DNA of 33,472 nt from an uncultured Lachnospiraceae bacterium (lineage in GTDB: Bacteria; Bacillota; Clostridia; Lachnospirales; Lachnospiraceae), in assembly GCA_905235845.1 (NCBI GenBank), contig CAJONG010000014.1:1-33472 (forward strand). Direction: 5' to 3'. A program made the translations under genes and the position numbers. Shown piece by piece: positions 31,603 through 33,472 of this stretch (within the stretch, counting starts at the first letter, position 1; every line of letters starts with the position of its first letter). Under the pieces are notes generated by a model that worked only from the letters and a program-made list of their open reading frames with translations, did no database searches and was not told the DNA's origin.

Positions 31603-31890
31603 ATGAAAATTGGAACTTTAAAAGAAGTCGATATTCGTGATTTATGGAAACATGGGCAGTATGACTTCTCTAACTGGCTCGCAGAACCGGAAAATATAGA
31701 ATACTTAAATGATATTTTGGGATTGACACTTGTTGATGTGAACCAAGAGGTTTATGTTGGCTCTTATCGCTGTGATATCGTGGCTAAAGACGAAACTAGT
31801 GAAACAAAAGTTATCATTGAAAATCAGCTTGAACAGTCTAACCATGACCATTTAGGAAAGATTATTACCTATGCTTCAGGGGAAGTTTAA
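31603..31890 (+). pseudogene. N-terminal fragment of PDDEXK-nuclease-like protein (DUF4268-type family)
   Basis: FSNWLAEPENIEYLNDILGLTLVDVNQEVYVGSYRCDIVAKDETSETKVIIENQLEQSNHDHLGKIITYASG then stop after EV. Confidence 0.7.
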
Positions 31891-32236
31891 TCTTACACAA
31901 ATCATGAACATGAACGATGAGTTTAATATTCTTCCGGTTTTGACTCAAGAAATAAATATGCTTCAAAGGAATGGCATAACTATATCGCTAAAAGAGTGTA
32001 TCAAAATATTTGGAAGTATGAGAAACAAGCTGGTTCATCAGACAGAAAATGCAATTTTTAAGGAGACTGACATCGTTGAAAGACTAACAATAAAAAATAT
32101 AGTCAGTTATCAAACGGAACATGATTTTGATGATTTAACCGGAAGTATGGATGATGTTTCTCAGGAACTAGCAAGCAATATAATCTATTTAGATATTGTG
32201 TTGAAGAAACTAAAGGAAGAAGAATTAAAAGTATGA
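31871..32236 (+). pseudogene. C-terminal fragment of HEPN-like protein fused by deletion to the preceding gene
   Basis: Contains SMRNKLVHQTEN (R-x4-H); no RBS or convincing start of its own; begins within the YASG codons of the nuclease fragment. Confidence 0.5.
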
Positions 32237-32278
32237 AATCGTTAGGATTTCGGTAGGAAATCGGTAGGTTTTGAGTAT
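32235..32278. repeat. Array A: 4 x 11-bp direct repeats
   Basis: GAAATCGTTAG GATTTCGGTAG GAAATCGGTAG GTTTTGAGTAT. Confidence 0.85.
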
Positions 32279-32330
32279 GTTATTTTGATCCGGAATCTGA
32301 TATATTTATAGTGACGAGGAAATGAAAAAA

Positions 32331-32374
32331 AGTACTTTTCCAGTACCAAATCAGTACCTTCACAGTATTTTTTG
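32331..32374. repeat. Array B: 4 x 11-bp direct repeats
   Basis: AGTACTTTTCC AGTACCAAATC AGTACCTTCAC AGTATTTTTTG. Confidence 0.9.
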
Positions 32375-32430
32375 CTTTCCGAAAATCTGCTATGATTATA
32401 ATCGGGAACAACAAAGAGGTCGCTGTCGCC

Positions 32431-32470
32431 CGATGTTACTATTTGTTACCGATTGTTACCATTTGTAACT
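32431..32470. repeat. Array C: 4 x 10-bp direct repeats
   Basis: CGATGTTACT ATTTGTTACC GATTGTTACC ATTTGTAACT. Confidence 0.9.
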
Positions 32471-32546
32471 TTCAATATAAAAATTGCTGTGGTATTCTTA
32501 TGATAAGGGATTGAAGAAAAGAGCCGAAGGACTTCAGATCTTTAAC

Positions 32547-32600
32547 CCCTTATTTTAATAAGGGCGCACTTCTATACATCCCCATCGGGATGGAGTGCGT
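32547..32600 (-). other. oriT: Origin of transfer (oriT), MOBQ/RSF1010-like
   Basis: Minus strand: CATCCC-GATG-GGGATG inverted repeat, then TATAGAAGTGCG|CCCTTATT; AAGTGCGCCCT matches the RSF1010/R1162-type nick region; a MobA/MobL relaxase gene lies about 550 bp downstream. Confidence 0.75.
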
Positions 32601-32675
32601 TCTGCGAAGCTCGGTATTCGTCGGAGCCGAGCTTTTGCCTTCGCTGCGCTTCGGAGATTTTCCTAAATGAGACCT

Positions 32676-32719
32676 GGACACTACATAAACACTACCTGAA
32701 AACCACCAAAACACAACCT
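32676..32719. repeat. Array D: 4 (possibly 5) x 11-bp direct repeats
   Basis: GGACACTACAT AAACACTACCT GAAAACCACCA AAACACAACCT; weaker preceding unit AAATGAGACCT. Confidence 0.85.
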
Positions 32720-32757
32720 TTTTCCCCTTTTCGCATCATCGGGAATGAGGTATCATT

Positions 32758-32817
32758 ATGATAAGCAATAACAGCGATATGAGCGTTTCAGAAAAATCTG
32801 AAGCGCTTTTTTATTGA
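32758..32817 (+). CDS. Candidate 19-aa leader peptide overlapping a terminator hairpin
   Basis: MISNNSDMSVSEKSEALFY*, preceded by gggaatgagg; its 3' half is the hairpin at 32782-32812. Confidence 0.4.
   Translation: MISNNSDMSVSEKSEALFY
32782..32812 (+). terminator. Intrinsic terminator/attenuator upstream of the mob operon
   Basis: AGCGTTTCAG-AAAAAT-CTGAAGCGCT (one G-T wobble) followed by TTTTTT. Confidence 0.75.
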
Positions 32818-32844
32818 CATTTTTCAGAAAGGAGGCAAGCACGA

Positions 32845-33155
32845 TGGCAAAAAAATATGAGCATCTTGAAAAATTGAGGAAGGAGGTAAAGGACGCAAAA
32901 CTGAAAAAGCAGCAGGCACAACATCAACTTACAAGGAAGGAGAACATGATCAGAAAAATGGAAGAGACATCGAGAAAACAGAGGACACATTTGTTATGCA
33001 CCAAGGCCGGATATATGGAGAGTATTTTTCCAGCGATCAAGGATGCATCGAAGACAGACTTCATTTAGTTCTGTGATGGGCTGATGAAGATTCCAGGCGT
33101 AAGAGAGTATGCGAAAAATTTTAAACCCAAACCGATCGAGGAGGTGATGCAGTAA
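32845..33155 (+). pseudogene. DUF3847-like protein with in-frame amber codon
   Basis: AAAGGAGG RBS; MAKKYEHLEKLRKEVKDAKLKKQQAQHQLTRKENMIRKMEETSRKQRTHLLCTKAGYMESIFPAIKDASKTDFI-TAG(33066-33068)-FCDGLMKIPGVREYAKNFKPKPIEEVMQ-TAA, overlapping the relaxase start. Confidence 0.75.
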
Positions 33156-33472
33156 TGGCACTTTATCATTTTCATGTTACACAGGTATCCCGCGGGGACG
33201 GACAAAGTGCTGTGGCGTCCGCAGCCTATCGAGCCGGAGAAAAGCTGCGGGATGATTATTACGGAGAATGCCATGATTACACCAGGAAGGGTGGCGTGAT
33301 CCTGAATGAGATCATCCTTCCGGACAAAGCCCCGGAGCATTTTAAGGACAGGACAACTCTTTGGAACGAAGTCGAGCATGTGGAGAAACACCCCAGGGCG
33401 CAGCTTGCTTATTCTTTTGACTTTGCTCTTCAGAACGAGCTGAGCCGGGAAGAAAATATCCGGATTGCCAGA
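33155..33472 (+). CDS. mobA: MobA/MobL family (MOBQ) relaxase, truncated by window edge
   Basis: MALYHFHVTQVSRGDGQSAVASAAYRAGEKLRDDYYGECHDYTRKGGVILNEIILPDKAPEHFKDRTTLWNEVEHVEKHPRAQLAYSFDFALQNELSREENIRIAR; open to the end of the window. Confidence 0.93.
   Translation, partial: MALYHFHVTQVSRGDGQSAVASAAYRAGEKLRDDYYGECHDYTRKGGVILNEIILPDKAPEHFKDRTTLWNEVEHVEKHPRAQLAYSFDFALQNELSREENIRIAR

Follow-up and report, generated by a model that had tools for sequence, protein, structure and literature searches.

Operators of the OmpR/PhoB and SARP type are 11-bp direct repeats that adjoin the -10 element, and the DR2 arm sites of Tn916 also consist of 11-bp repeats. In several mobilizable islands, including SGI1, promoters carry the site of a helper's activator, and the helper's master regulator triggers the island (PMC5058578, PMC4605294; reviewed in PMC5704250); the AcaCD-dependent promoters of SGI1 lack a -35 box (PMC5058578). 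The worked-out cases of helper timing come from Gammaproteobacteria and involve one activator (PMC5704250). A 2017 review of integrative mobilizable elements (IMEs) described helper-controlled excision for Gammaproteobacterial islands and expected it to be general (PMC5704250). How the transfer of Firmicutes mobilizable elements is timed to that of a helper is almost unknown.

The locus described here shares promoters without a -35 and a helper operator with SGI1 and with the islands under AcaCD or SetCD of IncC plasmids or SXT conjugative elements (ICEs). It differs in having four to five stacked operator types before one operon, where SGI1 has one type of activator site, and in its tandem short repeats, its setting in Lachnospiraceae-type Firmicutes elements and an activator that is predicted. 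As in OmpR/PhoB and SARP operators, a core of ~7 bp is joined to a 4-bp A/T spacer, the period is 10-11 bp and the array replaces the -35; unlike in those operators, the cores vary from element to element. The window, meaning the whole stretch of DNA that was analyzed, comprises 33,472 nucleotides of a contig from an uncultured Lachnospiraceae bacterium, and the features considered here are as follows.

32242 to 32285, plus strand: array A, four 11-bp units with core GGTAGG (GTTAGGATTTC, GGTAGGAAATC, GGTAGGTTTTG and AGTATGTTATT)
32306 to 32312, plus strand: -10-like motif of promoter A, TTATAGT with TCTGATA upstream, 32 bp from the start of the last A unit
32330 to 32374, plus strand: array B, four 11-bp units with core AGTACC
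32396 to 32402, plus strand: -10-like motif of promoter B, TTATAAT, 33 bp from the start of the last B unit
32434 to 32473, plus strand: array C, four 10-bp units with core TGTTACC
32498 to 32504, plus strand: -10-like motif of promoter C, TTATGAT, 34 bp from the start of the last C unit
32546 to 32606, no strand assigned: putative oriT between arrays C and D, AATAAGGGCGCACTTCTATAC and then a hairpin ending in AGTGCGTTCTGCG
32681 to 32724, plus strand: array D, four 11-bp units with core CACTACC/ACCACC, the most degenerate of the four arrays
32756 to 32762, plus strand: -10-like motif of promoter D, TTATGAT, 44 bp (an extra helical turn) from the last D unit
32844 to 33068, plus strand: DUF3847 protein, gene 1 of the mob operon (Pfam PF12958, E 4e-15)
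33155 to 33472, plus strand: MobA/MobL relaxase (Pfam PF03389, E 2.9e-32), cut off by the contig end

A MobA/MobL relaxase with its own putative oriT suggests that the window element is a MobQ-type IME. The relaxase is 79% identical over 106 aa to that of one complete IME (L033). The putative oriT, with a nic core that we take to be RSF1010-like, aligns with sequences upstream of the relaxase genes of five IMEs (L033, L034, L044, L003 and L008). At the left edge of the mobilizable element, array A starts 5 bp past the stop codon of the upstream ORF, which ends at 32236; all four arrays fall within non-coding DNA (32242-32724) between that ORF and the mob genes. Directly before array A, at 31603-32236, two adjacent ORFs of 95 and 121 aa in different frames look like a single nuclease-like gene split by a frameshift; no Pfam match was found for them.

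All four of the clusters of 10-11 bp repeats that a sequence-only reading of the window had placed in one non-coding region were recovered. The shuffle test suggested with that reading was run as a search for four-copy repeats of a 5-base core at a period of 8-14, with 1000 dinucleotide shuffles as the null. At the 18/20 level the segment held four separate clusters against a shuffle mean of 0.016, a number reached by 0/1000 shuffles; at the 19/20 level, arrays B and C were the sole matches in the 33-kb window. Pattern searches of the organism's own 2.2-Mb genome found array-like matches of the A and C types nowhere outside the segment, and two extra matches to the 11-bp TAC pattern, on other contigs, were not array-like. 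Plasmid and phage records searched at the DNA level gave no match. The cores had been read as all nTACC, which is wrong, as array A is GGTAGG on the coding strand. Nor is A simply D inverted, because all four arrays have the same orientation toward a downstream -10 motif, a feature that the sequence-only reading had missed.

This motif, TGnKATnnnnTTAnnnT with some variation, follows each array of the window (copies, in order: TCTGATATATTTATAGT, CTGCTATGATTATAAT, GTGGTATTCTTATGAT and GAGGTATCATTATGAT). By inspection, a good -35 is absent from promoters A-D and from the ICE promoters described below. When 27 IME and ICE arrays were compared, the last unit lay 32-34 bp from TTAnnnT in 17, 43-46 bp in nine and 54 bp in one. 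The spacing is thus quantised by the helical turn (Rayleigh p ~1e-9, for 27 related, non-independent arrays with unit phase set by eye and a motif picked out by eye from the very sequences used in the test), and the arrays hold one helix face relative to the promoter. The same scan of 20 other ICE-like loci (~290 kb) yielded nothing. Given this fixed spacing and the lack of a good -35, the segment is best read as four stacked promoters around oriT, which are probably activator-dependent.

The closest complete relatives are IMEs of ~6.5 kb: L033 (equal to the L043 locus, from an uncultured Clostridia MAG), L034 and L045. Their gene order is array A, oriT, more arrays, DUF3847, relaxase, CHC2 primase, a VapE-like gene, Xis and Int. 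The replication, xis and int genes lie downstream of the mob genes on the same strand, Xis and Int are of the Tn916 type, and the end adjoins a low-molecular-weight phosphatase gene. The relatives carry no mating channel of their own; the window element itself is cut by the contig end. Each of the three has four to five array-promoter modules with cores that are all different, as listed here with those of L044.

L033: GTAGG, GTCACG (10 bp), GTCCAC, GCTCACG and a weaker GAGG array
L034: GTAGG, AGTAC, CACC and GTCCACC
L044/L045: GTAGG, GTCACG, GTCCACC and GACGTT

An array related to window array D occurs at the same place in L034. L033 and L044, whose relaxases are 89% identical, have their first two modules in common and the same final promoter, and their last modules differ. 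The arrays of these IMEs lie anywhere from the left end to the mob operon, on both sides of oriT. The window element resembles known MobQ-type IMEs (DUF3847, MobA/MobL, Tn916-type integrase) in relaxase, DUF3847 and oriT and, through its relatives, in primase, VapE-like protein, Xis and Int; it differs from them in the array-promoter stack, which is limited to this subclade. In the homolog comparison proposed with the earlier reading, phased arrays were conserved in close homologs and missing from relaxase relatives at 40-47% identity, which have the relaxase and no arrays; IMEs L003 and L008, with a similar oriT, have none either. The sample consisted mostly of MAG contigs. Beyond int, at the right end of L033 (10580-10830) and L034 (12290-12370), there are 11-bp TTTGCACC / TTTATACC repeats and ATATGCC repeats. 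L034, in genome G281, and L276, the ICE of genome G365, adjoin the same host operon (MNSISxMNIDKSADYQNK... genes), which suggests a common insertion hot spot.

When array A was searched for in 397 genomes of the family, it was found on a few elements only, once or twice per genome and always on these elements or their remnants. One of them is conjugative (L037, genome G043); DUF5688 is the first gene of its operon, which also encodes VirD4, PrgI-like and VirB4-like proteins. Array A and its promoter lie directly upstream of this operon (L037:10818-10867, minus strand), ~47 kb from the integrase of that ICE. With the G043 DUF5688 protein as query, more ICEs of the clade were found, almost all of which carry an array-promoter in the corresponding position. 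Their transfer operons (DUF5688, RepA_N, VirD4, VirB4 and others) are headed by arrays, usually one per ICE, with the following ICE-specific cores.

TTACC: G202 and G365
AGTACC: G042
TGCCCCA: G281
TGTAGCC: G264
CTAACGA: G196
GATACC: G146
CATACC: G227
GCTCACG: G058
TGTCTCG: G218 and G366
GACTAC: G414

More distant DUF5688 loci had no array-promoter. The ICEs of G043 and G365 are near-identical (DUF5688 90%, VirD4 94% and VirB4 97%), with nearly the same promoter, whereas the array before it is GTAGG in one and TTACC in the other, indicating that specificity is swapped as a module. Solo stacks also precede unrelated cargo, for example the gene for a GrpB-like protein, or that for an AAA ATPase accompanied by another large protein: A at L038:9800-10100 (G186), A+B at L040:2260-2430 (G013), A+AGTAA+B at L036:10259-10300 (G023) and B at L294:15860-15910 (G264). 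These may be remnants, or else further hitch-hiking cargo that a helper controls. Other ICEs (L205, L206, L210 and L212) have three to four tandem DUF6462 (Xis-like) domains and no arrays.

Each IME array was compared with 13 ICE arrays, using 400 period-preserving permutations of the IME array as the null. None of the 400 permutations was as good as the match of window array A with G043, of window array B with G042 (L136), of module 4 of L033 with G058, or of the A and B arrays of L034 with G043 and G042, respectively. The GTCACG arrays were near matches to G218/G366 (2/400 and 7/400), and window arrays D (13/400) and C (89/400) had no convincing partner among the 13. The A core is common to the ICE of G043 and IMEs L033, L034 and L044, and the B core to the ICE of G042 and L034; in the window, operators A and B are shared with helper transfer promoters, and C and D are unmatched. 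A search for C-type ICE operators found no transfer promoter with the C core and one remnant-like solo array, in G264 (L314). The window's own genome, which is 79% complete, yielded no ICE of this type, and in G281, where both an IME and an ICE are present, the two have zero cores in common. Common descent or exchange, and not selection for sensing, could lie behind the matches between elements.

As for the protein that binds the arrays, the lead is a ~190-aa ICE protein with a sigma-70 region-4-like C-terminus, encoded beside the recombinase in G043, G365, G281, G146, G227 and G186. Its G043 and G365 versions share only ~30% identity, and the complete IMEs lack it. Its divergence did not covary significantly with that of the arrays across six ICEs, with one protein taken from another genome (rho 0.23, p 0.12), and for this reason we treat it as a lead only. 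Other candidates were set aside. The XRE protein beside the ICE array has a recognition helix that is nearly invariant across four different cores. The HTH_26 protein by the relaxase is unlikely, having similar helices in G365 and G218, which have different arrays. DUF6462 is present on the ICEs of G043, G264, G146 and G227 and was not found on that of G365 despite a full array; moreover, no array-promoter was seen at 20 loci picked for DUF6462. Between G218 and G366, which have the TGTCTCG array in common, another XRE protein shows 98% identity where neighboring genes are 57-78% identical; this regulator lies at L171:5193-5546 and L278:15722-16144. No PhoB- or SARP-family protein was found among the subset of ICE proteins scanned with Pfam.

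Since a single IME brings together operators of several ICEs, helper sensing is the simplest reading. We consider it reasonably probable that the arrays are operators of four tandem promoters and that the IME senses several helper ICEs through this stack. At each promoter, roughly four monomers of the binding protein would line up head-to-tail along a single face of the DNA, immediately upstream of the -10 region, and bring in RNA polymerase where no usable -35 exists; as each array has a different core, each would be expected to answer its own activator. In the ICEs, an array-promoter of this class with an ICE-specific core precedes the conjugation operon, and the IME would have strung together several ICE operators, as copies or as mimics. 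Such a tandem set, with a different operator for each promoter, would act as an OR gate, so that arrival or induction of any matching ICE would turn on the mob genes while the mating channel is being made, and perhaps also the replication, xis and int genes further downstream. From comparison of these sequences we infer activation over repression, monomer binding, helper-dependent mobilization and whole-element transcription. A wider picture is tentative: the IME may be built of modular promoter-operator cassettes from different helper families, helpers swapping cassettes and parasites collecting operators in an arms race, with fast-switching sigma-region-4-like activators as the regulators that read the 10-11 bp arrays.

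The same stacks might instead bind repressors of the ICE immunity type, with resident ICEs silencing the IME and stacking providing redundancy. Core switching between near-identical ICEs does resemble immunity switching, and XRE-type regulators are common on ICEs, one of them nearly identical in the two that have the TGTCTCG array in common. The arrays, however, lie upstream of the -10 and not over it, the promoters lack a good -35 as activator-dependent promoters do, and an operon behind stacked, independently repressed promoters would stay on until all the repressors were present, all of which makes repression unlikely. We regard it as quite unlikely that the cognate proteins come from different host chromosomes, each module serving another host. 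The hosts of the ICEs and IMEs do span many genera, yet near-identical ICEs inside one family differ in core, and an A core that occurs once or twice per genome, on elements or remnants, is not a host regulon.

Among the roles offered in the sequence-only reading, stacked operators with several diverged protein-site pairs fared well, and the other three did not. Arm-type sites for the element's Tn916-like integrase or excisionase, the role placed first in that reading, would suit the Tn916-type Int and Xis of these IMEs and the position of array A at the left end, but array A also heads the transfer operon of the G043 ICE, far from the integrase and so not at a recombining end, and the IME arrays may lie at any point from the left end to the mob operon. 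Each element has several unrelated cores, strictly spaced from a -10 motif; the window arrays differ from Tn916 DR2 sites in core, in their ties to promoters and in not lying at the integrase end. The right ends hold their own TTTGCACC/TTTATACC repeats beside int, which are better arm-site candidates, and the arm-site role is very improbable for the arrays. Equally hard to credit are sites for relaxosome accessory proteins or iterons of a circular intermediate, even though the arrays flank oriT and genes for a primase and a VapE-like protein are present in the IMEs. Against a relaxosome role, arrays occur on both sides of oriT, L003 and L008 lack them despite the same oriT core, and ICE operons are headed by arrays that are tied to promoters. 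Iterons would have a single core beside an initiator gene, whereas four unrelated cores occur within 485 bp, each locked to its own -10 motif.

If the arrays are helper-sensing operators, the cores in an IME promoter stack would constitute a readable list of the ICE families able to help that element, and the helper ranges of gut and rumen elements would be predictable from sequence. The arrays and their regulators would also form a natural set of orthogonal promoter-regulator pairs.
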